The notes beneath the pieces are model-generated. The model was not told the DNA's origin and did no database searches. It saw only the letters and a list, made by a program, of their open reading frames with translations. The translations under genes were made by a program, and so were the position numbers. This document shows positions 13,988-59,645 of a DNA stretch of 64,000 nucleotides, piece after piece (the stretch's first letter is position 1; every line of letters begins with the position of its first letter). The stretch is from positions 17,208,483-17,272,482 of the forward strand of contig OY987249.1 of assembly GCA_963920765.1 (NCBI GenBank), written 5' to 3'. This stretch comes from Ulota crispa (Eukaryota > Streptophyta > Bryopsida > Orthotrichales > Orthotrichaceae).

Positions 13988-14188
13988 CTAAAAATCTGAC
14001 ACTCCCTAAATCTAATGGTAATTGGCCACAAACGTTTCAACTTTCAATGGAAATTCTTATGTAGTCAGAAGCACTTTACTTGAACTTAATGAAGTTGGTT
14101 TTAATGCCTAAAGTGGATATCTGCATGAACCAATACGGGTCTCCTCAAAATCACAACTCAGCATGCAGACATTGAAATGAAGTGCATA

Positions 14189-14614: not shown

Positions 14615-14640
14615 TAACGTACCTAGAATAAAAAGGCCCT

Positions 14641-14910: not shown

Positions 14911-14911
14911 T

Positions 14912-17870: not shown

Positions 17871-17879
17871 TTGATTTCT

Positions 17880-32950: not shown

Positions 32951-35847
32951 TCACATGTAGTACACACACTGGAATGAAATAAAGCCATACCTGAAAAGAA
33001 TGTGCGTCTCTAGCTTGTCAAGAAGGACCGGATGATCACGAACCTGAACAACAGCAACTCTCAAATGACAAAATTGCCATTTACTTATTTCCAAACATGT
33101 CGAATTCATAAACCCAGCAATCCTGATGCCTCACGAAATTGATATAGGCTCTTGTAATAAATTGAATGAGAAAAAATAAATAAAGTTTTAGGAAAACTAC
33201 TTCCGTTCTTGAGCTAACTCCTAATCTCTTACATCATCTCGCAGCATACGCATTTGTACCCACGAGCTTCCTTTTTTTATTTTCAGAATTGTCAGCTTAC
33301 GGCATTGACCTATGATCCCAGACTTCCTGGTTTTACCTTTCCAGCTTAGCTTACAGAAATCCTTTACATGTATTTTTAAGTTATAACCTACTTAAATGAC
33401 AACTATGCACAAACATAACGTGGTAACGTGAGACCAAAGGACCCATTAAGCTATTTACATAAATCTGGGCAAGGCAGTCAATAATAGAATGTTCTCACCT
33501 GCTCTGCATAGTACGGAGCAAGAGATAACTTGACACTACTGCTGAGATCCAATGCCAATTGAAGACACTTGTAATTAACACCATATTAGATAAATTGGGA
33601 AAAACAGGGGTACCATTTTCAACTTCACCTTAAACCCAAAATGTCGCCTTAAATCAGATTCAAAGGTATCAGGTTTAGTATGAACCACTAAGATTTTTTC
33701 CTTCCCAAATTCTTCCTCTCAAGTGAGGGCACGTGTAATAATAAAAATGCTGGAACTTGAATTAAGTTGATCACCTTAGTTCTCAAAAGTCCCAAAATGT
33801 ACTGTTTTTCCCAATTTATCTAATATGATGTTAACCCCTAAAGGCCCAAGGAACCCACTTTGGGCTTTATGAGAACTCGAGCAAGCTCTATTGATTTCAT
33901 AATTTGAAAATTTTTCATGAAATTTTTAGGATGGATGCTACTCATCATAATCTACATGTGAAGCTTTATTTCATTCATTTGGATAAGTGTTGCAAAAGTT
34001 AGAAGGTTTTTTTCAATTTCAATGTCAAACCAGGTAGCAAAGAATATATTCTAAATTTTTTTATAATTTTTTTATAGAATTGTATAGATTGATACCTACT
34101 CAAAAAAAATTGAATCCCTCAATTTCAAATAATGAGGTAAGAGTTACAAGGAGTTTTCTTTTGCGGGCAATGAAGGTAGGAAGATGGTAGAAAAAACATA
34201 TAAAGTTTTCTTTTACTCTCAATTTTGAAAAATTACAAATGAAAATGAAAAATAAAGTTACTAATTGTCTGTTAGAGCATTCTCACCATTGGGATTAACA
34301 ATTTTCAAATTCTTCCAAAAGTTATTAGCATATTAGTTATATCTTTCATTCATCAATACTTTTCACTTTACAATTTTTGTAAAAATGAGTCCAAAATTTT
34401 TTTTTTGTTAAAATTTTTATATATGCTTTCAACCCATTTTCTAACATATTGCAAAAATTGCACAAGAAAAAAAACATATGTGTTTTTTTCTAAAAAGTTT
34501 GAAAATCCAAATTTCACCTTTTGGAAGGATTAGAAAAACCTACATTTTGAAATTTAGGCATATTGATCTTGCAATTGGTGGGGATATTCATTCTGAAATT
34601 TTGGGACAATGTACTTGTGCAAGTCAACCAAAGGATCCTATGGTTAGATTTGTTAAAAAATAAGTTTCAATGAAGATTTTGACCCTGGTTTGGAGACTAG
34701 TATTTTGAAGCAATTTTGGGCCTCTCAACACAAAAGAATTTTAAGGGTTAATTACTTCTTTCCTACGTAACCACAAAAGTCAGACAATGTCCTAAAGTTG
34801 GACAGCGTTAATTATTCATGCCGCTGCAGCAGGTCTAGGAACATGAATCCAAGCTGTAATATTTTCTGCAACTAACTTGAGGGAATTAGGAGGCGCCAGT
34901 AATACCAGGAGCAAGGAGTTATAATGTAGAACAAAAAGAGCTCTCATTCAGTATCAGCTCCTGATCCTCCAAGCCACTTTCATTGCAGTTGCGCTGCCTA
35001 AAACTCATATGTGATCACTAAACTAGCTTGCACCATCTCATTGAAGAGAGAATCTCATACGGGATCCTTGAGAGATAAAGCTAAACCTTCTACGTAAAAA
35101 TGCTCTGGTACTTAAATATCTAATTTCTCCATGAATTTATCCCGTCGTAGAAACTCAAGTCATCTTGAAATAATTCGAGATAAAATACTTCTAACTCAGT
35201 TAAGCAGGCAGGAAACGTCAGTTAAAAGGATGATTATTACATTGTCAACGGCTGATCAATTTCCGTAGGGAAATCTGAAGCCGCATCGTTATAGATGTCA
35301 CGGAGCTTTACAGGAATCGGCAAGGTGAGCACGTCGGCACAGTATTGGAATATTGTGTCAAAATGCTCAACAAGCAACTGCTGAGGCAAATCACTTATCA
35401 TGCGCATGCGCTTCCTAGAATTACTCAATAGGTTTCCTGGAACCCCTAAAGGATTTTGCAGTATTGTATACACTCTCTTTTGTGTTGTATACAAATGGGG
35501 TATTTGGACAGCACATGAAGCACATTGGAGCTATAAATTTTAAGCCAGGTCATAAACATACTATCGATCAACTAGGATATTTTGGGGAATTTTTTACATT
35601 GGTCATAAAGCCATTTTTTCAAATACTAAATGATCCTTGTATGAATATAGCGTGCACTTTTGGTAGGCAACATCCTTTAGGGGTTGTAGGAGTGAATTGT
35701 AGGAGTGAATGGCATCCATACTAAAGTCATTACTCAAGTCAGTGTCACGCCATTTCTCTCCGTAGTAGCTCGACCACTGCCAGATCTTGCTGTCCATTTG
35801 AAGGATGAATTCAAACATTCTTGTCTTTTTAGAAGGTGGAATGTAAG
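32951..35847 (-). CDS. Exons of an unidentified multi-exon gene
   Basis: I do not recognise the family. Exons supported by splice signals and protein-like frames, in gene order: 35,684-35,847 (AYIPPSKKTRMFEFILQMDS...); 35,034-35,442 (LPQQLLVEHFDTIFQY..., PIPVKLRDIYND); 34,906-34,997; 34,767-34,865 (KILQLGFMFLDLLQRHE, in-frame TAA, then LTLSNFRTLSDFCGY); 33,499-33,567 (CLQLALDLSSSVKLSLAPYY); and 32,991-33,043 (VRDHPVLLDKLETHILF), reading on to a TGA at 32,951. The last three join in phase 0. The overall look is alpha-helical and Leu-rich, as in HEAT-type scaffolds, but that is a guess. Several exons need TAA/TAG as sense codons, or else the gene is broken. The order and joining of the middle exons are uncertain. 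Confidence 0.45.
33577..33832. mobile_element. CCATATTCATTAAATT-family MITE in an intron, AATT duplication
   Basis: The ends AACACCATATTAGATAAATT and AATTTATCTAATATGATGTT. The right copy of the AATT duplication is split by the TTAA element at 33,835-34,747, inserted exactly at the MITE end. It lies in the intron between two predicted exons. Confidence 0.8.
33835..34747. mobile_element. piggyBac-like element, 913 bp, in an intron
   Basis: TTAA flanks (33,831-33,834 and 34,748-34,751), ends CCCCTAAAGGCCCAAGG and a degenerate ttttaaggg. Same length class as 6,755-7,666. Confidence 0.75.
35443..35683. mobile_element. CCCCTAAAGG-ended insertion splitting an exon
   Basis: The ends CCCCTAAAGGATTTTGCA and GGCAACATCCTTTAGGGG are inverted and match the TTAA family. 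The flanks are not TTAA (ggaa and ttgt). It separates two protein-like minus-strand frames that can be joined as SLLQ-VPGN if it is removed. Confidence 0.5.
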
Positions 35848-36007
35848 CTTTCACCAAACCAGCGTTTAGCACCAATCAATGGTTACGATGTGCACCAAAC
35901 AGGAAGAAATGCAAGTAAAACGGAAATGCTACGAATACCGCAAATAAGCTCAACTGCAGGGTTAATAACAAAGAAATTAAAATTTGGCAGCCGATGAAAC
36001 ACATTAA

Positions 36008-36095
36008 CCCTTAAAGGACGAGACAGACGTTTTTCGTCCCCAGCAAATACACGCAATAGCAACCAAACCACGGTTCCCGGCCCGTCCTTTAAGGG
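36008..36095. mobile_element. Very short piggyBac-like MITE, 88 bp
   Basis: TTAA flanks with ends CCCTTAAAGGACGAG and a matching GTCCTTTAAGGG. This is among the shortest members and defines the minimal ends. Confidence 0.8.
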
Positions 36096-36327
36096 TTAAG
36101 TAATAATAAATCCTTCCCCCTACAATGCATACTGCCTGTAATACCTACCTAATTTGGTCGCAGCAACAACTCTTCTATCCCAATCCACCAACTCTAGGCT
36201 CGATTTATACCTCGAGAGGCTGAAAAGGATTCTGTGACCTGAATAGAAAGATAGGAAACTGCCAAGAGAGGTTAAAGAGCAATCAACCACCAAGGGCACA
36301 ATTTCAAACAGGAATCCTAGGGATATA

Positions 36328-36729
36328 CTCCCTCTATTCCTCAAAAAGCGTCCAAAAAGCTTCCTTGTGAAGGATTAACTGTGTTTTCAGTCTGTGCTAA
36401 CAAATGCATTCTAGAATCAATACACCATCTACTAAATGTATGTAAAATCTTTGACTTTGATGTTGTTGTTTGGACACCCAAATTCCATGCAAAAAGTACC
36501 ATATTTGTGCATATTGTCAACTCCTCATTATTGATGACTTAAAGATTAGTACCAACAGTGGTACCTCATATGACCAAGCCCAAGCATGCTACGAGAGGAA
36601 TGTTGCCCAATCTCTTAACTAGCCCTCATTTCTGAGCATTTGAAATCAACAAAATCAACAAAAGCCGGGAGCTCTTTTGTGGTACAAGAGATGTGTCTGA
36701 TTGAGACGTTTTTAGAGAGACAGAGGGAG
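36328..36729. mobile_element. Stowaway-like MITE, TA duplication
   Basis: The ends CTCCCTCTATTCC and the inverted agagacagagggag are flanked by TA. CTCCCTC termini with TA duplications are the hallmark of Stowaway MITEs and mariner-like elements of plants. It is 402 bp and non-coding. Confidence 0.85.
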
Positions 36730-36939
36730 TATCTCCTTACTTGAGAATAGCTCTAAATGGACATCTGTCAGTACCCTTTGTTTCGGCAGGTTCTTCAGTT
36801 AGCTTCAGCATCTCCGTTCCCCTGGAAAAAAACCAAAACACCATTTCTATGCTAAATATCCAGATTAGCACTAATAAGCACATTCTGAATTGGAATTATG
36901 TCTTCTTGATTAGCATTCCAAGGATACAGATGCCATCTA

Positions 36940-38400
36940 ATACTAGTAAACTATATAACAGAATACGATTAACCATTGTGGCGATCCTTTTACCTGCCGT
37001 ACCTCCCAAGTTTTACTTACCTTGGTAATACCAGTCAGCTTGATGGGTGACATGTTGCTTGATGTATGACATGGTTCTGAGTTGATCAGTCACGTTGATG
37101 ATTGTTGAGGACTATCACTTTGACGATTGTTGAGGATTGTCACTGACGCTTGCAATGACAAGCTCAAAGAGAGAGAAAATTTTGTTATTTGTTGCAGGAA
37201 GGGACAGATGCAAAAAATTGTTGGCAACAGAACTACTTTGGGATCGTCGCATGTGCAAGAGAGTTGCTGCGGTGCATTTGGCGGAAGCAAATGCAGCAGA
37301 GAAGAAGCCGACCGCGCTGTGCAATACTTATGAGGCGAGCCTTTCCCCCTCATGCCGCAATTAGGGTTTTTGCATGTCTGTTGAGAATTTCCTAAAGGCT
37401 TTAGTTTAAACGGGGGTGGTCATTCATGTGCTTTATTTTTGGTCACGCTCACTTTGATGCAATTGCAACCCTTCAGCCACAAAGTCCAACGAGGGATGTT
37501 TGGAATCACTTCATATGAGCAGAAGTGAAATTTTCTTATAATACAGTGTGAATCTCTCCGAGCTTGCTGTTTTGCAGGACAAAGCTTCAGTCCCAAAGTT
37601 GTAACCTCTATGTGACTATTTGAATGCTGATTGAGTATCTTTCACCTCACAGTACTTTCCATTTGCATAGAAAAAGATACAAAGAACTCTGCTTACGAAC
37701 CTGCAGATGTGGCAGGATCAAGCATTTCGATTTATGGTTAGGGTTTTTGCATCCAAGGTTACATCGTTTTTAAAGATTGTTGCTTGCTTATATTTGAAAG
37801 ATTGGTGCAGAGGAAATAGGTGGATGACCTTTCTATTGAAACGTGCAAGTCAAGAATCAAAGGCATTGCGAGCACCGGCCAAAGGGAAGTCCAGTTTCAT
37901 GGTTTGATGCCCTCTTGAGGATTGCAAACAAAAAAAACGAGGTATTTTGCTTTTTCTATATTCAGGTTCTGTTTCAATAGTAGAAATTTGGTATTGTTTA
38001 TTGGCAAGGCAGAGGTAAGATCCCGCTTACTCTCTCATGCAATGTGCGCCAATATTCATGCAATGTGCGCCAGTAGAGTAAAGTATGAGATGTTAGATTG
38101 CATTTTTTTGTGCAATGAAATGCGCTGGAAATCTGCTAATGAAATGCGCCTGTAATTTGCTGAATTTGTTGCTCAAATCTTTGTGCATCGGTTTCTCCTG
38201 TTTTTTCTTTTTCAGGTGGTCGGTCCTTTCCTTAGTACTGTAATTTGCTTTTACATCTTGCTCTGGATCTTGTGCATCCGGCAATCAGTGGAATTCTAGC
38301 TTGCTTATTTACCTGCTGCACAATCATTCGGGTTTCTCAAGTGAAGAATTTACCGGATTGTGTGATTTTGGAGGATTTTAGGTATTCAAGCTTTCTAAAT
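36940..38400. other. Mosaic upstream of the eL28 exons
   Basis: 36,943-37,330 is related to 45,714-46,110 (shared gtaaactatat, gttgatgattgttg, and an exon-like stretch after ttgttgcag). Short exon-like pieces with acceptor and donor signals occur at 37,197-37,330, 37,843-37,903 and 37,969-38,017. None matches a protein I know. They could be captured gene fragments carried by the Helitron. Confidence 0.4.
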
Positions 38401-38419
38401 TTTCTTTTTTGCCTTACAA

Positions 38420-38989
38420 GTATTGCAAAGGATAAAACTTGAACACCTTCAAGTACTCAAGTACTACATTTGTTGTCATTATTAGGTTACCTTGAGTCTC
38501 TTTTGAAAGTTGTATGAAATTGTGTAGTAAAAGTACTTGATTGATCGATTAGGGTTGGCGAACAGAAAAAATGTGGGTATTGCATCCGTTGAAGGTCTTT
38601 CTGTGGTTTTGACCACCTCGAAGACCAAGAAGAGGAAACAGTCCGTAAAGTCGCGTCACAACTCTCACTTGAAGGAGGATTTCCGCAAGATGGTTAAGAT
38701 TATTGTCAACTAGGTATTTGCATTTTATTAGACTGTTGAATATAATTGTATTTCTATATGATTATTCTTTGCTTTGCAGCTTTTTTTTATTAGAGCTTCA
38801 AGAGAAACACTATTTTAATAGACACCTTTGCTGCTGAGTGTTAACTTGCTAAAATGTTCATTGATGTAGGTTGCCACTAACGGTTACATGGCTGATTTGA
38901 AGGCTGCCTCTCTAGCCCGGTTGGTTGCTATTCACAAGAGCTTGCGTGTGATCAAGGCCGGTGCCACCAAGAAAAAATCAAAGACTTGA
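38420..38989 (+). pseudogene. Ribosomal protein eL28 (RPL28) C-terminal exons
   Basis: The exon 38,553-38,713 reads LANRKNVGIASVEG and TTSKTKKRKQSV, then HLKEDFRKMVKIIVN followed by TAG at the conserved Gln. The intron 38,714-38,869 follows. The exon 38,870-38,989 reads DLKAASLARLVAIHKSLRV and ends in TGA. These align with the eL28 core (LANKKTV, TKTKR, VANQV, RPDLKKAALARL). A further piece, NLNTFKYS, at about 38,430-38,458 matches the preceding exon. The N-terminal part (VWEIVKKN) is not seen. eL28 is a large-subunit ribosomal protein. It lies 50 bp upstream of the Helitron Rep start, which suggests a captured fragment. The single in-frame TAG either breaks it or encodes Gln. Confidence 0.75.
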
Positions 38990-39039
38990 ACTTTGGCAAG
39001 ACAGTGAAGTAGTTGTGCCTTCTATTTTGGATTAGTCTC

Positions 39040-42000
39040 ATGTCCAAAAGTCCACAATCCCGCAAAAATAGACTTGCACGCAAACGTCGTGCAAAGCGCA
39101 CATATGCTGAGCGTGATGCAGAGAACGCAACGCGGCACGCCAGACGTGTAAATCGCTAGGAGTTGGAAGCTGCACGAGAAAATCTGCCCGAGGCTCGCGT
39201 AGATGATCTCAACGAAGATGATGAGTTCCACGCTGTCCAACTTGGTGCTACAATCAAAGAGGAGACAATGGTAGTTTGCAAACAAAATCGGCAAGTGCTG
39301 CAAGCACTGACGGAGGTACCATTAGCGCGACGTGTGGTGGATGGCCTGGTTGGCAGTCTTCGACATGCTTTTGGGCGTATGAACAGTGTCTGCATTGCAT
39401 GCAACGCTTTACATTGGGTTGAGGAGCGAGTCATTAGACGGGGCTCTACTTTGGCAAACCCAATCTTCACCATGTGTTGCGAGCATGGGAAAGTTAGCCT
39501 TGGAGCATTGAGCATAGCTCATGAGCCGTTGCAAAGTTTGCTGTTGGGTGGCACACAAGAGGCAAAGAAATTTTGTGATTCCATCAGGGCTTACAACAGT
39601 GCTTTGGCATTCACGTCCCTTGGAGCAAATATAGATCAACGATTCTCCCAAGGTGGTAACTACACCTTCCGACTACAAGGCGCGTTATATCATTGCATGG
39701 GTAGTCTTTTGCCAGCCAAAGGGGACAACCAAAAATTTGCGCAATTGTATACTGCGGACAATCAAGCTGCGCTCAACGGTCGAATGGCGGCCTTCGAAAA
39801 ATGGACTAAAACTTGATGGAAAGACTTCAAAATATGTTAAGTTAGCACAATCCAACTTTTTGAAAATGTACGTGCACGATTGGCTGTGCAACCGGTAATC
39901 AATTCGGAACTTCGTCTCTTAACTTTGGGATCTAAGGACATGCAAATGTACAACACTCCAACGGCAAATGAGGTAGGCGCTATTATGGTTGGAGATGGCC
40001 ATGATGCTAGTATATCCGAGAGAGACATTATTTTGAAGAGGATAATCGGGCCTCTTCAGCGGATATCCGCATTGCATTTTGCTTATTCGCCCTTGCACTA
40101 TGTGCTTCTTTTCCCCTGCGATGTCTAGGGTGGTCTCCAAGCATCCCCTTCCGAAGCTTTGATGAAGGATTTGAGGAAGTGAATTAGATTGATGTCAGGG
40201 GCAGAGGTGGGTCACATAGATTAATACAGATGCAATTTTATGCACATGTGCTCCACCCACGCAATCGGCACGACCACATTTTCTATGCAAGTCGCCTCTT
40301 ACAACAATATATGGTTGACGCATGGGCTTGCGTTGAGCAGAACCGACTCAAATTCTTCCAAGACAACCAAAGGGACCTCCAATGTGAGCTATATAGTGGG
40401 GTCATGGATGCACTCAACGCTGGCGATCATGATGCATCGCAAATTGGTCAAAAATTCATTTTGCCATCATCGTTTGCTAGAGGCAGACGTCAAATGAATC
40501 AATTATACCAAGACGCAATAGCCATTGTGCGTATGCGTGGACGTCCCCATCTATTCCTAACATTTACATGCAATCCAAAGTGGGCAGAGATTACAACTGA
40601 ATTATTACCTAGGCAAAATGCAAAAGAGCAACCAAATTTGGTCACGAGTGTATTTGAGATGAAATTTGAAGAGCTAATGACAGATTTGAAAGACCGCAAG
40701 ATTTTTGGGACGGTGATGGGGCAGATTTGGGTGATTGAATTTCAAAAGAGAGGCTTGCCGCATGCGCATATCTTGCTGATCCTTAACGAGCAGTCACAAT
40801 TGAGAACTATAGATGAAATTGACTTGGCTATATCTGCAGGTAAGTTTACTTGTTTTTCTTTTCACTATGTTTTATGCAATAGGATCATTATTTTTAGCCC
40901 AAATTTTGTAGAGTAGCTAGAGTATCTTGCTAAGCCATAGGCTCTGATATTAGAGAAGATGATATGATTATAATGTTGGGTATGTGCAAATATAGAAGGT
41001 TACATGAAAATGATTAGATTGTAGACTACTAAGCTATTTTGAACCTCAATCTTCATGGCAAAATTGTCACTAATTTTTCCAATTCATTATGTTATTTTTT
41101 GTGGTTGGGGATCTAGCAAGTGAGAGAACATTGGACTTCACATCAACGTGGGCTTTGTGTTCATCTTGATATCCATAGCTGTGGCGCACAATTTGCACAT
41201 TCTTGAACAAGTATGTTTCATCTTTCTAACTCAATGATTAATAGTTTCAACAAATAAGTTGTGTTTTCAATTATGATGCATCTACTTGGCTATGTGTGCA
41301 GAAATCCCAGATTCCGTTACCCATCTGGAGGCGTACGAGACAGTGACACAATGCTTAGTGCACAATCCTTGCGGCGCATTCAATCCAAACGCCCCCTGCA
41401 TGGAGGATGGTAAGTGCACAAAGCATTATCCTCATAATTTTGCCAGAAAAACAAAAACAGACAACAATGGCTACCTTGCGTACAAGAGAAGAGATAATAG
41501 ACACTTTTTTGTGGATAGCAAGGGCAATTCAATTGATAACCAATGGGTTGTACCGCATAACGTTTATCTAGCAACTAAGTATAACGCCCATATAAATGTA
41601 GAGGTACAATGTTGTTTTATCACACACTTTTTATTTCATGTGAAAACATTCATTTTACAGTGTGGCCATGTCTACTTTAGTGACGGTGTTTGTTGACGTT
41701 TACCGGATTGATTGTTATAGAAGGAGCTCCAAATATACATGCAATGGATCATCTACCAATTTGACCACAAGGCTGTGCTTTATGTGCATGACAACAAAGA
41801 GTGGCCAAGATCAATTTTGTTACAAACATTGGACGATGAGATCAAATTTGTTAGAAACTTTGGAAAAAGAGACTTTGGACAATGAGACTTTGGACTCTAT
41901 TGGGTGGTTTCTTCTTGCTCATTGTACAAAAAACAACTATCATCATGTTTGATGTCCTCTTGAGAAACAACGTGGCTCTATAAAGACATCAAAAGGCTAC

Positions 42001-44604
42001 TTGGCACTCTTGGTGTTGTCCACATGATTGAGTCAATCAAACTTGCATACATTTGGCTCTTTGCTTTTTATGCAAATGAGATGTGTTTTCTTCACTAGCA
42101 TAGCAAGTTCATGAATGATGCTATAGCTCTTATGGAAATGCTATAGATTCATTGAAAGGTTAGCTGCTATTTTATGTATTTTTTTTTCAAAATACCTCTT
42201 TTTTTATCTAAACTCATTTTATTGTGCGCAGGTTTGCTCATTCTTTACAGTTGTGAAGTACCTCTTTAAATATGTTTATAAAGGTCACGATTGTACAAAT
42301 GTGGTTTTGCAAAGTAATGATGAAATTCAACAATACATTGACGCACGCTACATCTCTGTGTCTAAAGCAGCTTGGAGACTTTTTGGGTTCAAAATGCATG
42401 ATCAATCTCCGCCAATTCAATGTCTCCAGGTACATTTGTCCAATCAGCAGCGTGTGACATTCAATATAGATGGTAGTTTGGCGGATATTGTTGCTGCGGA
42501 TCAAGCTAGAAAGATAATTTTAACATAATAGTTTGAAGCAAATCAAACCATTCCATTGGCCCAAGAAATGTCCTATTTGGACTTTCCTTCACACTTTACT
42601 TGGCAAGCCACTGATAAAAAATGGGTGATTTGAAAAAGAAGATACTCAATTGGTCATCTGTATTTTGTAAGCCCTTTGGCAGGCAAGAGGTATTTCTTAT
42701 GCACGTTGTTAACCGTGGTAAAAGGTGCTACATGTTTTGAAAGTTTGCATACCTTCAATGGCAAAACTTTCAACTCTTTTAAAGCTGCGTGTATTGCACG
42801 TGGACTATACAAAGATGACACAGAATGGGAGCGTTGCTTAGGAGAAGCAGCAAGGATGCAATTTGGCTCTCAACTCCGATCCCTTTTTGTGACCATCTTG
42901 ATACATGGACCTCTAGCAAGTCCCTTAAAGCTTTGACAAGACCTTTGTGAAGACATGTCAGATGATTGCTCTCACCAACTGCGTCAAATCGGAGTCAAAC
43001 AAGCGTCATAAGACTAGATACATAGTCTTGCTTTGAACCTCATTGCTCAACTTCTTGCAACTTATGATAAGTTGTTAGAGGATTTTAATCTGCCACAACC
43101 TGCATTTTTGTTGGAAGAATTGCAAGGAATCAAGTTCATTTTTGAGGAGCTTGACAGAAAATGTGGAAGAGTTGAGAGAAAAGATTCAACGGCAAATTCC
43201 CACTTTTAACATGGAGCAGCGCGACATTTATGACAAAATCATGCAATCGTGTTTACTTGACACATGTGATAAAGTTTATTTTATTGACGGTCCTAGAGGA
43301 ACCGGCAAGACCTATTTGAAAAATCTTCTCTTGAAAAGTATACGGTCACAAAATCAGATTGCATTGGTTCTAGCTTTGTCTGGCATAGTTGCACTGCTTC
43401 TAGAAAAAGGACAGACTGCACATTCGCGTTTGAAAATTCCACTGGAGCTAAATACAATGTTTGTATGTAGCATTCAAAGGCAAGGTGAGCTTGCCAAACT
43501 CATCCGTTGTACCAAATTTATCCTTTGGGATGAAGCATTGATGGTGAACAAGTTGGCATTTGAAGCTGTTGATTGGACTTTACGTGACATCACTAGGAAA
43601 CATGTGACGTTTGGAGGAATTGCTTTTGTAATGTGTGGAGACTTTAGACAAGTCTTGCCTATTGTTCCAAGAGGACTACGTCCAAATATTGTTGCGGCGT
43701 TGATTAAAGAATCATACCTCTGGAGGCATGTTGAGGTGCACGCACTACGTCAAAACATGCGTGTTATGGGACCGGCTTTGCTTCATGATGACCTTGGGAA
43801 TCGCACTTTTGCTAATTGGCTTCTAGCACATGGTGAAGGCAAGCTTGACATGGTCAAAAAAGAGTATGTTTGTTGCCCAAAATTGGTAGTATTACAAGAC
43901 CAAAGTTTGGAGGGTTTGATCACTGCAGTTTACTCAGGAATTGCAAATAGACAACATGGACAAGAGTATTTTAGTAGCCGTGCCATTCTTGCCGCTTGCA
44001 ATGATGATGTGGCAACAATCAACGCAGTTGTGCTTGATAGAGTTCATGGGCAAGCTCAACAATTTTTGAGTGCTGACAAGGTTAACGATGCCGAGGGCAA
44101 GAACATGGTATCAACCAAATATTCAAATACCCTAGAGGTTAGCAGATGGCCACCACATAAGCTCACAATAAAGGTTGGAACTCTTGTGATGCTACTTCGT
44201 AATCTAGATCCATCGAATGGGTTGTGCAATGGTACCAGATTAATTGTGCGGCGTTGGTCTCCTCGGGTTTTGGAAGCTAAAGTCCTTACAAGATATCATG
44301 CAGGATACATTGCATTTATTCCTCAAATTCCCTTGATCACCGAAAATTCTGGATTGCCTTTTGCAATACGTTGCAGGCAATTCCTAGTTTGCGTTGCTTA
44401 TGCAATGACAATAAACAAATTGTAAGGACAAACACTCATGAAAGTAGGAATTTGCCTTACAAAGGATATTTTTTCTCATGGCCAATTGTACGTGGCTTTT
44501 TCACGTGCAACTACTCCAAAAAATATTTTGGTGCTTTTTGGTGCACAATCAAATCCAAATGAGCCATTGATGCAGAATGTTGTGTATAGCAAAGAGCTTA
44601 GTTA
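39040..44604 (+). pseudogene. Helitron RepHel transposase (HUH Rep plus Pif1-like helicase)
   Basis: The frame starts at ATG 39,040 with a basic N-terminus. The Rep part has FLTFTCNPKWAEI (about 40,550), the two-histidine motif GLPHAHILL (about 40,757) and the tyrosine region YLFKYVYKG and DARYISVSKAAWR (42,256-42,380). A donor at 40,840 and acceptor at 41,301 join as ISA-EIPD, a conserved Helitron sequence. The Pif1-like helicase has Walker A GPRGTGKT (43,289-43,312), ILWDEA (about 43,525), and the C-terminal GQLYVAFSR. Together these nick and unwind DNA for rolling-circle transposition. In-frame TAG/TAA occur at 39,157, 39,843, 40,183, 42,526-42,531 and 44,423; TGA at about 42,632 and 42,915; and there are single-base frameshifts near 39,810, 39,861, 40,128 and 43,163. 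The frameshifts alone make it inactive. Confidence 0.9.
41604..42250 (+). other. Intron or insertion inside the Helitron Rep region
   Basis: Between the exon ending in HINVEV (donor at 41,604) and the exon starting at 42,251 (acceptor tctttacag), the sequence does not encode Rep. It includes a 96-codon frame at 41,662-41,952 with no known motifs. A small Rep exon is probably missing here, because the phases do not join directly. Confidence 0.5.
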
Positions 44605-49078: not shown

Positions 49079-49082
49079 TTAA

Positions 49083-49412
49083 TCCCAAAGGGCCCTTGGG
49101 CTCTAGAGATACGGTACCAAATACGGTTGCAACCAATATTCAGAAGTTTGAATCAACTCAAAATTAAGTATTACAACCATAGGTGCAAAAAAAAAATTGG
49201 AAAACTCTTAGAGCAGCTCAAATACGTCTATACATATGGTCATATGTATAGACATATTTGAGCTGGTATGAGGGGTTTCCAAATTCTTTTATGCACCCAC
49301 CTTCATACAACCCTTCAATATGTATGGTTGTAACACTTAGTTTCTAGCTGATTCAAACTTCTGAATATTGATTGCGGTATTGTATCTTCAAAGCCCAAGG
49401 GCCCTTCAAGGG
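49083..49412. mobile_element. Palindromic piggyBac-like MITE, 330 bp
   Basis: TTAA flanks, ends tcccaaagggcccttgggc and gcccaagggcccttcaaggg. The arms are inverted over about 140 bp around catatggtcatatg-like centre sequence. Confidence 0.8.
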
Positions 49413-49984
49413 TTAAAAAGTGAGTAAAGTACAAGTGGCGGAGAAAAAAATTTGGAGAAGGCCGCGCTCAAATTTAAAAAGTGGGTAAAGTACAGGTGGT
49501 GGAGGAAATTTTTTGGTGAAGGCAGCGAGAGTTGAGCCTGCCACCTGGCAACCTCTTGGATAATCCTTCAGGCACCCCTGATTTCCAGGTCCGCAGCGCG
49601 TGCCGATCCCCACTATTGTCCCTGCCGCGAGTTTCGATGCACGCTGGACCTGGTCACGCCGTGCCTTCCGCCTACAAGTTTAGGATATGGATCCGCGCCC
49701 GGTTTTGGCTAAGTTTGAGATATTGTTGCGGCTGACTGGTCTTGCAAGCGAGCATCCTATAGAACATGTGTTTTTTTTTAACAAGAAATAAGTGAACATA
49801 CGGATTTTTTAGTGAAATATATGGTGTATTGGTTAGCATATTCTTCTTGAAGCAAAGACCAATTTCATTATTCACATATTAACATCAAATGTTTTCTTTT
49901 GGCTTGTGATTACTAGAGTTTCACTTAGCAGTGTAGACGGATTTACCCACTATTCAATGTCATTGCATTACAATTGCAGTATCC

Positions 49985-50155
49985 GTAGCAAATTCAGTTT
50001 GAGTTACTAAGATTTTTTCCCTCCCAAACTCCTTCTTTCAAGTGAGGGCATGTGTACCAAAAAAAATGTTGCAAGCTTGGTTTTAGGTGACCACCGAAAA
50101 CTTCTGAAAGTTCCAAAATGTATTCTTTTTCCCAATTTAACAAATATGGTGTTAC
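49985..50155. mobile_element. CCATATTCATTAAATT-family MITE, left end truncated
   Basis: The family body (agtttgagttactaagatttt, agtgagggcatgtgtacc) and the right end (cccaatttaacaaatatggt) are present. The left end is missing, so the element is a fragment. Confidence 0.7.
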
Positions 50156-50424
50156 TCTTCTTTCTCTCAGAATTTATATTTCCCCGCTACTCCTTTGCCT
50201 TGGACATTTTTTATTTTGTCTACAAGCTTGCTCATTGCTCTTCTCATGATTTGCTCTGGCTTCCAACTCGTTATTTGTTGGCTTGGATTTTGCTAAATGT
50301 TGGATGCAATTGAATTGGCTCTCTTGTTTCTCGGATTTCTAGCATTGAAAGCTTCAGTTGGGCATCATTAAGGTGTGTTTTCAGTGGCCATATAGACGAT
50401 GTATCTTAGACTTGTTTCTTGCAG

Positions 50425-50573
50425 TATAAGCGAGTAAAAAAGCTCCATTGGAAATCACATACGCATTACTATTATTATGAGGCTACTGTTGGGGCTGGGA
50501 TGCCTGTAATTAGCACCTTGCGCAGTCTCGTCAAAATTGGTGTCAAGATTGTGAAGGTGGAGGGTGTTTTGAG
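50425..50573 (+). pseudogene. Orphan exon of homoserine dehydrogenase (AK-HSDH type)
   Basis: The exon is bounded by an acceptor (cttgtttcttgcag) and a donor (gag-gtcagt). It encodes YKRVKKLHWKSHTHYYYYEA then TVGAGMPVISTLRSLVKIG and VKIVKVEGVL. This matches the catalytic homoserine dehydrogenase core (YEATVGAGLPIISTLRGL, ILRIEGIFSG), which reduces aspartate semialdehyde to homoserine. The open codon AG would become Ser on joining the expected next exon (SGTLSYIFN), which I cannot find downstream; nor can I find the Rossmann-fold exon upstream. Some core positions are changed (ETGD to KIGV). It is most likely a captured, decayed fragment. One exon cannot tell a bifunctional AK-HSDH from a single enzyme. 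Confidence 0.8.
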
Positions 50574-50579
50574 GTCAGT

Positions 50580-52179
50580 AAATTGAGAATATATATGACT
50601 CTTGTTATTAAGCCTTCCTAAATTAACAACTTTTGGCCATTTGTATATTTAGTTGACCTAAGCCTTACAAGGAATCATGTTGATGTAGCGGCACTCTTTG
50701 CAAAACTTTAGTTTAATCTTTGTTGCTACGGAGTTAGTGTTGCTACATCCATCCACAGCTCATCTCTGCACCCTTCTTCCGTAGCACAATCCAAGATACA
50801 CATGGTAATGAAATTAGTGTTTATACAGCTTTTGTTATTTTTGAAACTCATTACAGAGAAAATTTTCCACTTCCAATAATTGCAATCACATGATATTGTA
50901 AGTTTAAGATGTCTTCACAAAATAATCAAGGTTATTTTTACTGAACAAGGTTGAGATAGTTATTTCAGAATCTTATCATTGAAATTTTCTTTCAAGAGCT
51001 CAAGTCAAAAATTGAACATGCTATTGAAACTCACCTCCCTGCATTGTCTTTGTTGTTCCCTTCTGCTCCCTTGTAAGTGTTTGTTTTTTGTAAGCATAGG
51101 CAAATAGTTTGAAGCATATTCAGATTTCATTGACAGAACAAGCTGGCTTTCTGGTTGGATTTTGGGAAACCCACGATGAACATGACAATCACAAATATTG
51201 CGATGATTGTTTAGGAAGCCTCATTGAGTACACACAACTACATCCCTCTTGTTAAAATGTGGAGGTACATCAAATCCTTTATACCTCTATCTCAATGCTA
51301 ATTCAGATGAATTCATATACTCCATCGGTTATTTTGTACATGTCTTACATCAGCTGTTTCTTGTCCTATAGTAGATGCACTTGTTGCGCCCAACAATTTC
51401 CAAAGGCTTCTAGATAAACCATGATTTACGTAGTTGTATTGAGTTGCAAGAGAGTTGAGCAAGTACTAATTACTTTACATGAAACCAATGGTATGAATGA
51501 TTAAGAAGTGCATCTTTACTTTTTGAATCCATGAATGTCTACGCAAAGCAGTGAATTGGTACTTGTACAAAATTATTGAAACAACTTTCACAATAAATTA
51601 CACAATTGATATATACATACTGTAGGAACATGTATAAAATGCAAATTACTTTATTATACTCAGGTCAATGAAAACTTGATGGTTGATTTGAAGAGGCTTT
51701 GATCAATGGATGTTGTGAGTTTATTTACAACACCCTGTACTTTGAAGCCTCTTTAAAATTTGCTAATCATTTAAAATGTAAACCAAAGTTGTGTTTGGGC
51801 TTATGGTTTGATGCACTAGTAGGATATGAAGGAAAAACAACTGCCATTTCATGACTCCTTAAGAGTTGTATGGGACATGGCATGACTGACAACAATTGTA
51901 CATAGTTGTATAGGAGTTGCAGTTGTCTTTAAGTAAAATCTTAGTCTTTTTGTGAGTTATTTTTATGCAGTCACATTCCTACAACTGCAGTTTTTTTATC
52001 CACATGAAGATCATCATTTGCCCTTCGAAATTTTTATTGCCTCAGCCTTAGTCTCTTGCCCTTTTTTTTTCCTCTGGGACAAGATATCTTTAGCATGGTT
52101 CCCAATGATGCATTTAATTTTTTCTAACATATGCTTGTCAAAGCAAGCCATGCAAGGCTAAGTGTCAAATTTTCATTTG
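50580..52179. other. No gene recognised; short exon-like frames
   Basis: Frames with splice-like borders occur at 50,995-51,065 (ELKSKIEHAIETHLPALS) and 51,138-51,265 (AGFLVGFWETHDEHDNHKYC), of unknown family. 51,665-51,780 is repeated at 57,265-57,390 (gttgatttgaagaggctt, gttgtgagtttatttacaa). They may be more captured fragments. Confidence 0.35.
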
Positions 52180-52183
52180 TTAA

Positions 52184-53090
52184 CCCTTTAAGGACCACGC
52201 GACCATATTTTGGTCTTTGGGGCTGGTTTTTGGCTTGTAGGTTGAAATCAATCAATAATTTGGAATTTGGTTTTGAAGAACACATGTGATTACAAGAATT
52301 TCACATTCATCTAAAAAAATAACAATGCAATCGGCTATGAGAGTTGACAAATAATGGTATTTATACGACATGGCTTCAAAATACATATCCTTTTTTTGTC
52401 AAAGATGGATCAAATCAACAACACAATACATCAAGTATGCAAGAAGAATGTCAAATTTCAATTGCACAATTCTAAAAAAATTCAAACTGCTTAAGAAATA
52501 TACTTGTATTGTTTTCCTATACGATAGTAGTATAATTGTAGTATTTGAAGATTTACTAAAATGGTCTTGTCATTTTGGCTTTAAAATTTGTCATCCAACA
52601 TTTAAGGCCAATTCTTGATTGTTTTCACCAATTGGATTTTCCAGAATAATTATCAAGTTTCTTGTAGAACCGTTTTAGGGTAGCAAAGAAAGTGGGATTT
52701 TTGACCATTTTTGTCCACTTAGCTACACCTTGTGATTGCTATTTTTGTCTATTTTGTGTGAAACCAGTCTTATTGTAAAGGTGGGAAACCTTGCTTTCTA
52801 GAAATGTAAGGCTCTTTTCAATCAAAGCTTGCATGAAGCGTTAACATTCAAAACCACATAAGCATGAAACACTAAAGATTTTCCACATACAACTCACTCA
52901 ATCATTATAATGTTTCACCTCCAATGATAGATCTAGCTGAAATTTTGGTGCTTTATAATAAACAATGTGTACTTCCCCTTCGTACAGTTGGATTACTAAA
53001 AGTAGGTTCATGTTTGAATCAATTGCACATCTAAACTTACATCCCTTGTTTTTAGTGGATTTTGTGAAAATTAGTGTGGTCCTTAAAGGG
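52184..53090. mobile_element. piggyBac-like element, 907 bp, extended flank duplication
   Basis: The left end TTAA-CCCTTTAAGGACCACG and right end GTGGTCCTTAAAGGG-TGAA. The left flank tcaaattttcatttg-TTAA recurs 6 bp beyond the right end. Encodes no transposase. Confidence 0.75.
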
Positions 53091-53164
53091 TGAAGATCAA
53101 ATTTTCATTTGTTAAGATCAATTTTATATAATTCTATTTATTTGACTTTTTTTTTAATATGTCA

Positions 53165-53460
53165 CATGTCTGCCACAATAGTAAGGCAATTGTAGTGCAA
53201 TCATAGCGCAATTGTAATGGAGTTGTTATACACTTGTAATAAATTATTTTGTAGCTGTAGTCAAGTTGTAGTTTGGTTTTTGTGTAGATGATGATTAATT
53301 GCAATGTAGTTGTTGTGTAATTGTAATATAGTTGTAATATGGTTGATATATAGTTGTAATGTAATTGTTATGTAGTTGTAGTGTATTTGTTGTGTGATTG
53401 TAGCACAGTTGTAGTGCAGTTGTAATTTAATTGGGGTGTATTTGTACTATGGTTATTTAC
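53165..53460. repeat. Degenerate minisatellite, about 10-11 bp period
   Basis: Some 25 or more units of a TTGTAGTGYAA-like word (agttgtaatg, tagttgtagtg, attgtagcac) run through this stretch. Related words recur more loosely at 53,280-53,340, 55,080-55,260 and 57,000-57,160. Confidence 0.75.
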
Positions 53461-56400
53461 TCTAATTTTGTAAATATTGATATCTGTCTATTTTAACATT
53501 CATTCTACATTTGTTCTTTACTTGTTTTGTAGTTATTTTGTAGTAAATTTTCAAGGTGATTTTTTCCTTTTTTAAATAAACTCACCATATTTTAAATTTC
53601 TTACTATCAATTTATCTTTCAAAAATCCAATTGACATTACTATTTTCAAAATTGAGATTTTCAAAGCTTCATACTAATAAATTTAACAAATAAAATTGTA
53701 TAATTAAATAATAGTGTTCTTGGTGATGTTTTAATTTATATTTATGGAAATTTATTAATATGCAAAAACTTCAATGTAAATTTTAGATCATAAGCAAATG
53801 TTAGTGATGATGATTTTTATGAAACAAACTACTTCAAAACAAGTAGTTTAATCTTAACCCTTAAATTTTTAATCAACTAGAAATGGGTCAATTAGTTTTT
53901 AGCACTTCCATTTATGAACTTAGGAATGTAAAAAGTCACTTGAACTTTGACTCATTTGAAAGATAAGATAAACATGTTAGCTTTGTAAGGGTGTTTTCAA
54001 ATTTAGAAGAAGAGTCACCATTGAATTTACAAAAAAATTCAAACCATGGGTGGTCATGGAGTTGTAGTGTTAAATTTTGGCCCTAGATTTGTAAAAGTCT
54101 TCTATTTTACTCACAATTCTTGAAATTGAAGGGTGAAGTGGTCACTATTGCAAGACCATTTTCCCACTCATTTTTTACCTTAAAAATACAAGACTTGTTT
54201 CTATGCATGTGGAACTTGATTACCTTGAGAATGAGCGTAATATGCCAACTTTTTAAAATGTTCTGTGTCCAAATGAGCCAATCAAAGCACAATTTCAAGT
54301 ACTCCAAAGCATCGGTTTCCTTGTAGTACCCTTTACATTTTTGTTATAATCTTCCAATCAAACCCTTGGATTGAAACCAAACTTTGCAGAGATGATAAGG
54401 ACTTGGCTTTTTACGAGATCTTACATTTACTTTGACCTAAAAATGACTCATTGTTCTTTAAGCTTCACCCTTTCATAACTTACAAAATTGAGGTCCAAAA
54501 CACCTTCAAAATGGCTGAAAATTTTAAGGGTTAAAAAACTATATGATATTTGTATGAATAATAACTTCTATTGAAAATGTTAAATATTATTAAGTTGTGG
54601 TTAATTATAATGCAATTGTTTGCATACCCGGGGTTGATATATGTACACCTAGAGAGGGGGGATAAATTTTAGATATTTATCATCAACAAGCTGAGTTTAA
54701 AAAGTTTAAATTTAGATTTTGACTTAGAGATCTTGATTTTGCCTAGAACCACAAAGAATGATACAATTGAACAATGCCCAGTGGAAAAACTTCTTTTTTT
54801 TTTACAAACAAAGGTAAAGATAATAATTTGCCATGTAACTAAGCTTTTCCATTAGACAATGTTCAGTTGTATCTTTCTTTATGGATCAAGACTAAATCAA
54901 AGTTTCCAAATTGAAATCCGAATTCAAACTTCCTAAATTCAGCTTGATGATGATAAATATCAAAAATTAACCCCCCTCAAGCCCTCATGTGTGCATATAT
55001 TAAACCATGGATGTGCATATATCAATTCTCTTGTTTATATGATTGCATTTTTATTGTTACTTATTTACAATTGTAAAATAATTAGAACATAGTTGCAATT
55101 ATGAATATTGCAATTGATTACAATTTTGGTGCAATTGTGTAATTAATTGAATGTTTGTCACTTTACATTTGCAATTGAAAATAGTTATAACAAAATCATA
55201 TTAATGGTATTGAAATTGATTGCAATTATAAAGTAATTAGTATTGGCAATATGCAATGATGTTTGCGGTGCTTGACTTTGTAAACAATGTTTTTAATCAA
55301 TACCATCACACATTATAAATTATAAAAGTTGAAAATGGAAACTAATCTAAATAATGAATTTTTTTAAATGAAAATTTTTAAAAACAAAAAAGCGATTGAC
55401 ATAATAAATGTTAAAAACATGAATTGTTTATGTTTATTAATATGTAAAAACTTCTTCAAAAAAACAATATGGTATTTGGAAAATAAATTTTTTGAAAGTT
55501 TTTCAACAAATGATTCATTAGCTTTGAATTTGCAAATATTTGTTAAAAAAATTGTTTTTATATTTGACATATTTTTGTTAGTTTTTAGGAGTATAAGTTG
55601 TATAACAATAATTTGTATGAAAGTTTTAAAAAAATCTTAATATTAGACTACAATCACTAGCAACTTTGATCATACATCTTTGATGCAAATCAACAACACA
55701 AAACATTGCAATGGACATTATTGCCTTTGGCAACAAGATGTGAAGAAAATTTTACTTGGACAAAAGATAAAAAAACATTGTCAAAAGTATGAGTGTCAGT
55801 CATGATATTGTTTCATAGTGATATATTAGTAATAAATACAATCCAAAAACAACTAGGATGCAACTACAATACAATTACTTTAATAAAACATATTACACCA
55901 ACATCAAAAAATATATTTGCATTAGAATTTGCTATCTAAGATAGCAAAAAAATGTCAATAAAATTTTACAAGAATAGAAATTTTAAAATATTTTTTTCAA
56001 AAAAACTGGCACTCATAGTCTAGTTGTGTTTTAGTAGTACAGCAATAGCAAAAGTAGTCTAGGAACAATCAAAACTCAAAGGCAATACAACTGCTCTAAA
56101 AGAACGCATTCACACTAACATCAAAAGACATTATTGCAGCTGACCTTGTTGCCCATGGTAATAAATAATGCTATGAAGATTTTGGAAGAGCGTAGAATAA
56201 AGAAAGTTTAAAAATAAAATTGAGTGGCATTCGTGATGCGGTCGTCTCTAAGTAGTAAAACATTAATAGGAAGACCCAAGAACAACTAAGATGCAACTGC
56301 ATCACAAATGCCCTAAGAAAATGCATTCACACTAATGTCAACAAACGTAATTGCACCTGATATTGTTGCCCATGACATCCATGAAAGTCAAAAATAACTA

Positions 56401-57545
56401 ATAAGTTACTTAAACCAAATTTAAAAAGAAAAACAGTTGTATTTCAACCGTTGGTTAGTTGTTCCACAGTAGTATAAAAATGCTATAATAACTACATTGC
56501 GACTGCATCAACAATGTCCCAACATAATCCATTCTCATTGACTTCAAAAAGGCGTTATTGCACCTGACATTGTTGTCCAAGACATCTAAGAATGTCAAAA
56601 ATAAATTAATAAAATCAAATTTAAAAATTATGGAAATTTAAAAAAATATACTCAATCATTATTTGATTGTCCTATAATAGTATAGAAATGCTAGAACAAC
56701 TACATTGCGACTGCATTGCCAATGACCCGACATAACCCATTCACATTGACTTCAAAAATGTCAATCTGAGCATAAACAATTGCCCAAGGCAGAAAGAAAT
56801 TGCAAAATCATTTCTTTTACATGAGTGAAATATAAAGAAGGTAATAAAAGAAATGAAATGCAGTCATGGCACATTTGTTAGTGAGTAGTATTGCAGTAGA
56901 ATCAAAACCAAGACACAACTACTGACCACTATGATGAAAAATATGGACTGCATCCCTAATTTTCATCCGCAAACTCACTGAAATCATTTGTGAGGGACGA
57001 AATTGTTAAACTCAGTTGTATCATAGTTTTGCGTAGTTGTAAATACAAGTGCAATACAACTCAAGAGAGTCCACGTTAGCATTTTTACTGTTCAATTCTC
57101 TTTTTAGTTGCCATGCAGTTGTTTTTTATAAGGAGTTGTAAAAGTGCAGTTGTGTTTTGCCCCATTTCCTACTAGTGATGAGAGTGAGTTTAAGGTTTCC
57201 CAAGTTATTTTGTAATGCTCATGTATTTGTACCTTTATTACCTAACTTCATTTAGGGACTTAAATTAATGAAAAATTGATAGTTGATTTTGAGGGGGCTT
57301 TGGTTAATAGGTGTTGTGAGTTTATTTACAATACCTTGTACTTTGAAGCCTCTTTAAAATTTGCTAATCATTTAAAATGTAAACTGTAGTTGTGTTTGGT
57401 CATTATGATTTGATGAGAGTGAATTTGAGTATCTCAAGCTGTTTTGTATTACTATTGTGTCAATACTTTGGAACTTTGTTGTTTTTTTTCCCGGCAATAT
57501 GTATGCAATGTTTGTATTGTTCTTACTTGGTTTGGTTTGGGCATT
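53461..57545. other. AT-rich, no gene recognised
   Basis: Short open frames at 54,107-54,326 and 55,364-55,640 have no recognisable features. 56,030-56,780 contains four loosely repeated blocks of about 150-200 bp (aactacattgcgactgcatc, cattcacattgacttcaaaa), probably an old, diverged tandem array. Confidence 0.5.
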
Positions 57546-57550
57546 AGGAC

Positions 57551-57824
57551 AAATTTGAGTCCAAGAGAAGGCCCTTAGAGTGCATGTGAAATGTGCACAT
57601 AGAGAAAATATCAGCTACCAGAAATGCATAAGGTGAGCAATCAGATCATGTGCCTCGTTGAATTTATAATAAATAAATTTTAAAAAGTTATTATTATTAT
57701 TAATTATAAATCCTATGGTGCACATAGTCTGACTGCTCACCTTACACATTTCTAACAGCTGATATTTTCTCTATATGCACAATTTACATGCACCCTAAGG
57801 GCCTTTTCTTGGGCTCAAATTTTT
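57551..57824. mobile_element. Foldback MITE with AAATTTGAGTCCAAGAGAAG ends
   Basis: The ends AAATTTGAGTCCAAGAGAAG and CTTTTCTTGGGCTCAAATTT are inverted. The arms remain complementary for about 100 bp (agagaaaatatcagct against agctgatattttctct). The element touches the next exon, which starts at about 57,831. Confidence 0.7.
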
Positions 57825-57830
57825 CTTAAA

Positions 57831-58336
57831 GTTATGTGCTTTAGAATGATGCATAAAACTAAGATAGCAAGGAGGAAGAAAGCAGCTTTGGAAAAGAAGA
57901 TGAAGAAAGTAATTTGTATACAAGTGAATGTCTGTTATGTAAGCACCAAGTACCAAATAGTGGAGCAGGTCTTCATGATCATTATTCTGGTAAGAAGCAT
58001 CAGCAATTGGAAAAATTACAACTTTACATTCCATTTTCCAAGAGCATGACATTTTTCCTAGTATTAGGGGAAAAGACTTATGAATGCAAGAAGCGCAATT
58101 GTAGTGGGTTTCTTGCTAATCATAAAGGGCTTATGTCTCATTTGAATCAGTATCCAATGGGGCCTAAACAAATATGTATTCTTCTAAAAACATAATTGTG
58201 GTATACAAGAGAAGCAAAGCTTAATGTGGTTGAGAAAGTACAAATAGTCAGGCCCAAATGTTATGGGACCTTAGAGTTTGATATAGAAATAAAATCAAAG
58301 AACTCTGGTTTAGTTTTTTCTCCAACACTATATTGA
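57831..58336 (+). CDS. Unknown protein exon with matrin-like C2H2 finger
   Basis: The frame reads DSKEEESSFGKEDEESN (acidic), then SECLLCKHQVPNSGAGLHDH and YSGKKH, a matrin or U1-like C2H2 zinc finger (C-x2-C-x12-H-x5-H). A second, looser Cys/His motif follows (YECKKRNCSGFLANHKGLMS). Under the standard code the frame stops at TAA 58,193. Read with TAA as Gln it continues for 46 more codons (LWYTREAKLNVVEKVQIVRP...) to TGA at 58,334. TAG/TAA also occur at 57,842, 57,854 and 57,860 in the acidic stretch. Such fingers bind RNA or DNA; the protein is otherwise unknown. Confidence 0.5.
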
Positions 58337-58659
58337 TGCCACGAGTTTAGGGTTTCACTTTCTTTATGTGAATGCCCGATTTAGTTGTGAGATGCTTTCT
58401 TCCATAACAAAGTTAATAATGTTTTTAGAATCTCATGGAAATCCAAAAAAACATGGAGTGCACAAGACTGCAAATAATCAATCTCGAATGGTCAATTTTA
58501 GATTTCATCATTTTCTTGGTGGCATTGGAATGTGAATATATTAATCTTTGATTGAACATATAGCTTTACATTATTAAAAAAAAATTAACATACTAACATT
58601 GTACTTATTGATTTTGCAAGTTTCAGCACAAAGATATATAATATCACTGCCAAGTAGAT

Positions 58660-59224
58660 TTATTGTGTTCTGTAATCAATGTAAAACTAAAAAAGCAATT
58701 TTCAAAAGTTTTTAAACATTTGAAAAATGTTATAGTAAATGAGAAGATCAAGGATGGCAATGTAGTTATTATTGGGAATTCTCTCTTTACAATGATGAGC
58801 ATTACAAAGAACTACAGTTGTAATGTTTACAAAGATGAAGATGACGTATCATATGTTTTCTTTGTTTGGGTTAGTGTAAATGGTATGTTTTATTTTTGAT
58901 ATTTTATATTTTATTTATTTATTTATATTTTATCTTTTGATGCATTGAATTGTATTTAATTCACTAATTTTTTTTGTAGGTTTCAGAGATGAACAAGGAA
59001 AGCAAACGTGTTTTGATATGTCAGTGATCAAGTTATTTACAATACCACATATTAATGATGTGTTATTTTGCAAAGCTTCAAAGATTTTGCATTGTATACA
59101 AGGTGTGGGCAAGATAGGGCAATTTGGCATTGCTCTATATTAGAAGACCTTAATTTTTAGGTGGTATAGTAAAATGAGAGTAAGACCCTCAAAAAATATT
59201 AGTGATAAATTCACTCTGAGTTGA
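58660..59224 (+). CDS. Two further exons of an unknown protein
   Basis: The exon ending at 58,882 (IKDGNVVIIGNSLFTM, YKDEDDVSYVFFVWVSVN, donor g-gtatgt) joins in phase to the exon starting at 58,980 (acceptor ttttttttgtag), which reads FRDEQGKQTCFDMSVIKLF, then LHCIQGVGKIGQFGIALY. A TAG at 59,141 is followed by 26 further codons (KTLIFRWYSKMRVRPSKN...) to a TGA at 59,222. The 5' limit of the first exon is uncertain, because two frames look protein-like around 58,625-58,700. It may belong with the C2H2 exon at 57,831. Family not recognised. Confidence 0.45.
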
Positions 59225-59487
59225 CTTTGTAGCTGCAATTTTTGATATTAGAGTTCTTCATGATAATATTATATGAGTGCTATTTCTTGGATATATTTTG
59301 ATTTCATATATGCTAAAATCTTATTACAAGTTGCATTTAACAACTAATAGAACATTATACATGTTTAATGTAATGTCTAAGTTCAAAGTTCTGATTTACA
59401 GTATACAAATATTGAACAATTATGAAAGCATGGAAGAAATCTTATAAGAATTTGATATTTATGAATCTAGGGGTAATTTGGTGCATT
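59225..59487. other. AT-rich, nothing seen
   Basis: Probably the 3' flank of the preceding exons. No motif or repeat recognised. Confidence 0.4.
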
Positions 59488-59642
59488 CACTAGTAGAAAA
59501 TTGCGTTGAAACTCATGTTTTCATATCATATAGTTTATGTTAAGTTCTTTGTTTCCAACGCAAAATTTGCGTTGGAAACCAGAATCTCAATTAAAACTAT
59601 ATGATATGAAAACATGAGTTCCAACGCAGTTTTCTACTAGTG
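59488..59642. mobile_element. CACTA-type MITE, ATT duplication
   Basis: The ends CACTAGTAGAAAATTGCGTT and AACGCAGTTTTCTACTAGTG are inverted and flanked by ATT. CACTAGTAGAAAA-type termini with 3-bp duplications are typical of plant CACTA (CMC) elements. It is a 155-bp palindrome. Confidence 0.9.
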
Positions 59643-59645
59643 ATT

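Follow-up and report, generated by a model that had tools for sequence, protein, structure and literature searches.

A decayed Helitron with pieces of host genes

The 64,000-nucleotide window analysed here (C8:17208483-17272482; contig OY987249.1, assembly GCA_963920765.1) comes from the 274.8-Mb genome of Ulota crispa, assembled in 157 contigs, and contains at about 36942-45711 (window coordinates, plus strand; C8:17245424-17254193) a decayed 8.77 kb Helitron of the RepHel type whose coding frame is interrupted by TAA, TAG and TGA codons. The limits of the element are based on alignment to a second copy on contig C5, which is 94.8% identical to window positions 36943-45712 over 8784 aligned columns, and the flanks of the two copies align on neither side. 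Both copies end in CTAG followed by T; their 5' ends differ, that of the C5 copy reading TC after an A and that of the window copy AC, not TC. With its ends fixed from the two copies, the element shows the 5'-TC, the CTRR-3' and the insertion between A and T of a Helitron, save for the AC of the window copy. The C5 copy also has a hairpin with a 5-bp stem 12 bases before the 3' end (9 of 200 shuffled sequences fold equally well); that of the window copy is weak and not distinct, with 67 of 200 shuffles folding equally well. A Rep (HUH) domain and a Pif1 helicase occur together in one coding region of the window copy. The domains, the match to the animal element Helraiser, the ends and the hairpin define 36942-45711 as a Helitron, as the preliminary description of this DNA had correctly proposed.

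The coding region consists of three parts, all on the plus strand. The Rep part (39040-41603) matches Helitron_like_N (PF14214, E 2.1e-57) and Helraiser (PDB 7lcc), and is read by eye as containing an intron at about 40840-41301. The middle part (42232-43161) is defined by alignment to Helraiser (E 1.5e-44) and by the codons found in other copies, and the Pif1-type helicase part (43160-44605) matches both PF05970 (E 1.5e-66) and Helraiser (E 5.2e-80). The frame ends in TAA at 44603, and TAA is also found there in all three other copies aligned at the site. The Rep and Pif1 helicase parts thus align with Helraiser over most of their length; unlike Helraiser, the window copy is broken and apparently intron-bearing. 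The window copy is without bases that the C5 copy has near 39802, 39853 and 40120, and the C5 copy without single bases that the window has near 43404, 43876 and 44471; these indels are unpolarised, a missing base being missing only in one copy relative to the other. The frame also changes near 43160, where no indel separates the two copies. No relative of the Helitron was found in viral_contigs (protein, alignment and DNA-pattern searches), in genome_contigs, or in phages (tblastn), and in the plasmid database five records with distant helicases matched the Helitron query. Directly past the 3' end, 45706-45764 resembles the 5' end of the Helitron (36941-36998; 81% over 59 columns), as if a second, related Helitron lay head to tail downstream.

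Two pieces of host genes lie within the element. The first, at 38434-39010 (plus strand, ends approximate), is a fragment of the gene for 60S ribosomal protein L28 (eL28) with its introns kept. Aligned to the intact gene (locus L003, C8:13708786), it opens at roughly codon 42, within exon 1, and closes a little beyond the old stop, which is why the first ~41 residues are missing; a query with the eL28 N-terminus gave no significant match in the window. The best matches of this piece among solved structures are plant 60S eL28 chains, so that the earlier identification of eL28 was right; the window sequence is a 5'-truncated gene fragment inside the Helitron and not a working gene. The C5 copy of the Helitron carries the eL28 fragment as well, and the piece has therefore moved along with the element. 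The window fragment is absent from the results of a genome search with the L28e family, which did give an L28e-domain match at C8:3657480, in a gene we take to be Mak16-like, with an internal TAA in intron-like sequence after the exon. The second piece, at 45333-45491 on the minus strand, is a fragment of an enoyl-CoA reductase gene (ECR/TSC13-like; PF02544, E 9.9e-8), for which tblastn with an Arabidopsis ECR query aligned 54 residues at 50% identity, with a gap of 3 residues.

Capture of gene fragments is known from plant Helitrons, and the account of a Lolium helitron describes fragments of GIGANTEA and of a ribosomal-protein gene (PMC2702305). The present element resembles it, as described there, in 5'-TC (C5 copy), CTAG-3', insertion before T, a hairpin (C5 copy) and host fragments that include a ribosomal protein gene; unlike the Lolium element, which that account describes as non-autonomous, it also holds a Rep/Pif1 coding region. 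What lies in the window is an ordinary finding: one more copy of an element type already described, whose mode of decay is familiar too.

Stop codons at glutamine positions and the nuclear code

Twelve premature stops (TAA 3, TAG 6, TGA 3) lie on the frame path of the window Helitron: TAG 39157, TGA 39814, TAG 39843, TAG 40126 and TAG 40185 in the Rep part, TAA 42526, TAG 42529, TGA 42631, TGA 42934, TAA 43009 and TAG 43015 in the middle part, and TAA 44423-44425 in the Pif1 motif. The preliminary description had drawn attention to TAA and TAG at glutamine (Gln) positions, and for the most part these observations hold. TAA 44423-44425 stands at the Gln of the Pif1 motif (INKL*GQT in the window, INKSQGQT in Helraiser), a site that is CAA in every other genomic locus aligned there, and TAG 39843 is present within LS*HNP; a TAG placed at 40183 exists, its real position being 40185-40187. 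In the eL28 fragment, TAG 38711-38713 occupies an exon-end site where both the intact gene and the C5 copy read CAG, and where all five plant-type chains with printed alignments (10 chains matched) have Gln. More generally, the Helitron path has nine premature TAA/TAG, of which five face CAA or CAG in the C5 copy and a sixth (43015) faces CAA in four more distant copies.

These positions are what would be expected if TAA and TAG encoded Gln in the nucleus and TGA were the sole stop, a code that certain ulvophyte algae and ciliates use. It is described for Dasycladales, Cladophorales, Trentepohliales and Blastophysa in PMC2984419, where Streptophyta are listed with the standard code. The likeness to the ulvophyte code is confined to TAA/TAG at positions conserved as Gln: according to the same paper, intact ulvophyte genes carry TAA/TAG and the quoted Cladophora and Acetabularia sequences end in TGA only, and neither feature is found in the intact genes examined here.

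Six full-length, intronless H3 genes of 136 codons each have their stop directly after the universal C-terminal GERA, as TAG in three, TAA in two and TGA in one, and each of their 48 Gln codons is CAA or CAG. Four further H3 last exons, one of which (L052) reads RRIIGERA, terminate in TAG, and five H2B loci terminate in TAA (1), TAG (1) and TGA (3). The ends of these 10 H3 and 5 H2B genes are thus TAG 8, TAA 3 and TGA 4, so that 11 of 15 are TAA or TAG, and with read-through those 11 proteins would each be extended by 2 to 157 codons. Excluded from this count are the remaining 14 of 29 histone-family loci, which inspection by eye sorts into two of H2A type (both ending in TGA), the H3 pseudogene L048, partial exons and further proteins with a histone fold. 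The stops inside the H3 match L049 (TAA) and inside L065 (TGA) were likewise placed by eye, at exon edges. In the intact eL28 gene the exon-end Gln is encoded by CAG, and the terminus reads TPARQ followed by TAA. Nor is the proposal that natural ends are TGA confirmed in the window, where TGA 38987-38989, taken as the end of the eL28 exon, is premature (Arg in the intact gene, which has its TAA end later; TGA also in C5), and where TAA 44603 closes the Helitron frame.

A tRNA-Gln pattern, modelled on a plant tRNA-Gln and open to TTG, CTG, TTA and CTA anticodons, gave three matches, all CTG; the pattern is narrow, and other tRNA-Gln genes would escape it. An eRF1_1-domain match at C1:7849049-7849435 has no internal stop. 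Within the Helitron, TGA interrupts the frame as well as TAA and TAG, and the path contains CAA and CAG in a ratio of 71:12 as against 3:5 for TAA and TAG (Fisher p 0.005), unlike what a single shared family of Gln codons would give. The nuclear code of this genome is standard. A reassigned code is refuted by the very observation that the preliminary description had named as decisive, intact genes that end in TAA/TAG with Gln encoded by CAA/CAG, and we give it practically no chance.

Substitution contexts and the origin of the stops

Comparison with the C5 copy shows that many of the stops are private to one copy. At the 12 window stops, C5 has Gln at five, Trp at one, Lys at one and the same stop at five; conversely, four stops are found only in C5 where the window is sense, three of them at window Gln codons. 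Judged by the codons of related copies, not every window stop falls at Gln. TAG 42529, shared with C5, faces Trp in Helraiser and TGG (3), CAA (1), TGA (1) and TAG (2) in other genomic copies, and TGA 42934, also shared with C5, faces Trp in Helraiser and TGG in two other genomic copies; at these two sites the copies without TGG have CAA or a stop. TGA 39814 is TGG in C5 and CAA in two more distant copies, and the site of TAA 42526 has mixed codons among the other copies. Across 53 helicase-matching stretches genome-wide, the window's included, internal stops number TGA 69, TAA 26 and TAG 24.

The Trp and Lys sites bear on whether the protein might be rescued in a working but leaky Helitron, with a Gln tRNA partly reading through TAG/TAA. 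Long open stretches do remain between the stops, and PMC2984419 mentions that ordinary tRNA-Gln can read TAR codons by wobble. Read-through by a Gln tRNA would nevertheless leave stops at Trp and Lys sites to be explained, and the bases missing relative to C5 (39802, 39853, 40120) and the frame change at 43160 cannot be read through at all, which makes such a rescue hardly credible. The Helitron copies are probably untranslated.

The two copies differ by 338 transitions and 83 transversions (transition/transversion ratio 4.07), and the discordances between C and T or G and A depend strongly on sequence context: they affect 95 of 349 CG sites (27%), 79 of 346 CHG sites (23%) and 90 of 2497 CHH sites (3.6%). 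Cytosines in CG and CHG thus differ 6-8 times more often than those in CHH, an excess of C-to-T change in the contexts of methylation. At Gln sites the two copies are discordant at 4 of 13 CAG/TAG positions and at 3 of 65 CAA/TAA positions (Fisher p 0.013; small counts). CpG in the window as a whole is depleted to 0.42 of expectation. Outside the Helitron, the intronless H3 pseudogene L048 (C6:21032288-21032656) has a CAG-to-TAG change at the Gln of RFQSS; it differs from L046, the nearest intact H3 among the six compared, at 32 positions, including 11 C-to-T and 5 G-to-A.

Neutral decay, in which random point mutations and indels accumulate irrespective of methylation and Gln is simply the commonest source of TAA/TAG, is a rival reading. 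A single-step model with rates taken from repeat pairs in the window derives 38% of new TAA/TAG from Gln, the largest single source, and traces new TGA chiefly to Arg (39%) and Trp (22%); both transversions and indels do occur between the copies. The C/T change that separates C8 from C5 is, however, 6- to 8-fold more frequent at CG/CHG than at CHH, which demands a context-dependent cause, and neutral decay by itself appears improbable to us.

Change biased to CG and CHG is the pattern expected of plant-type methylcytosine deamination. The preliminary description had offered C-to-T decay of methylated DNA as its second reading, and the comparison with C5 supports it, both in the CG/CHG excess and in the several stops that are CAG or CAA in the other copy. 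The stops are almost certainly loss-of-function mutations in a dead Helitron and its gene fragments under the standard code, most of them C-to-T changes that methylation would have driven. The Helitron acquired fragments of two host genes, eL28 and an ECR-like gene, and from the element so loaded come no fewer than two copies, those on C8 and C5, which share the eL28 fragment. Each copy then decayed on its own, mostly by C-to-T change at CG/CHG sites of either strand, as deamination of plant-type methylation on silenced transposons would bring about. Such decay places many TAA/TAG at Gln because CAG is itself a CHG site and CAA/CAG yield TAA/TAG by one coding-strand C-to-T; C-to-T on the opposite strand would turn Trp into TGA or TAG, with indels building up alongside. 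A comparable case is the Welwitschia genome, for which long-term deamination of methylated transposons is reported (PMC8275611). In both, methylated transposon DNA would gradually exchange C for T; the abstract of that report stresses CHH methylation, unlike the present two copies, in which CG/CHG sites change most.

Several points weigh against methylation-driven decay under the standard code, or against the firmness of its parts. Seven of the 12 stops are TAA/TAG where C5 or some other copy has CAA/CAG, so that Gln sites are genuinely over-represented among them. TAG 40126 is Lys in C5, lies beside an indel and is not a C-to-T change, and the discordant sites 40185 and 44324 require two changes each. 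The frame path through the Helitron was picked by hand. Between the window's older repeat pairs context matters less (CG 24%, CHG 16%, CHH 10.5%; under a looser rule about CG 23%, CHG 18%, CHH 13-14%), and it is from the substitution contexts that we infer cytosine methylation as the cause of the bias. As for the code, the test covers histones and eL28 rather than a genome-wide tabulation, and a second, weaker eRF1_1 match (C1:18435831-18436166) has one internal TAA, in what may be a pseudogene, an intron or a paralogue.

It is conceivable, though we hold it only tentatively and consider it less probable than its opposite, that in this genome CHG methylation makes CAG-to-TAG the main route of frame loss in silenced transposons and captured fragments, in which case TAG at Gln would act as a CAG-specific nonsense clock marking the time of silencing. 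For searches of variant codes, the decay explanation disposes of an attractive but misleading clue: where TAA/TAG occupy conserved Gln sites in repeat-rich DNA, they would be a product of CG/CHG deamination, and since deamination itself yields such codons, claims about the code should rest on intact genes. The locus also provides a clean two-copy case of a Helitron with ribosomal-protein and enoyl-CoA-reductase fragments and a measured CG/CHG/CHH decay ratio.

Sequences outside the Helitron

The Pfam scan (E limits 0.01-0.1) covered all six frames of about 1-34500 and 44701-60000, the minus frames of 34501-37500, the plus frames of 34501-39000 and chosen Helitron plus frames of 39001-44602. 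Downstream of the Helitron, 47059-47274 (plus strand) is an SRP68 pseudogene fragment with an in-frame TGA and TAA (PF16969, E 1.7e-10; best SRP68 match in the PDB, E 2.4e-9), possibly the cargo of a neighbouring element. ARAGORN and Rfam searches over the window found nothing.

Three further stops named in the preliminary description lie outside the Helitron. TAA 34812-34814 (minus strand) is present in the open stretch RHE*LTL; the exon assigned to it has no Pfam match and no meaningful match in a PDB search of two of the three minus frames of 34700-36100, and among the 40 candidates scored, of 2152 in a genome DNA search, no second copy extends over 34812-34814. Nearly all of those 40 fall instead on a dispersed repeat of ~245 bases at 35441-35685, with 80-86% identity. 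TAA 58193 and TAG 59141 are likewise present, and the open runs to TGA that follow them, put forward as signs of coding, are nothing unusual. The six frames hold 4950 TAA/TAG codons, after which a run of at least 46 sense codons leads to TGA in 96 cases and a run of at least 26 in 333; long runs before TGA were rejected as coding evidence, being common in the window. The exons proposed around these three stops (34812; 57863-59224) gave no convincing match in Pfam or genome DNA searches, with one Pfam match below the cut-off (E 0.039). The stretch with TAG 59141 (58456-59227) has an 81% identical copy at C10:9035678-9036452.

Towards the start of the window, three related minus-strand frames (1301-1888, 14641-14919 and 17859-18173) have in common a stretch resembling ELRTGIxDIxNTLLPLA and are without a Pfam match, and 183-1528 and 13473-14892 form an 86.7% identical duplicate.

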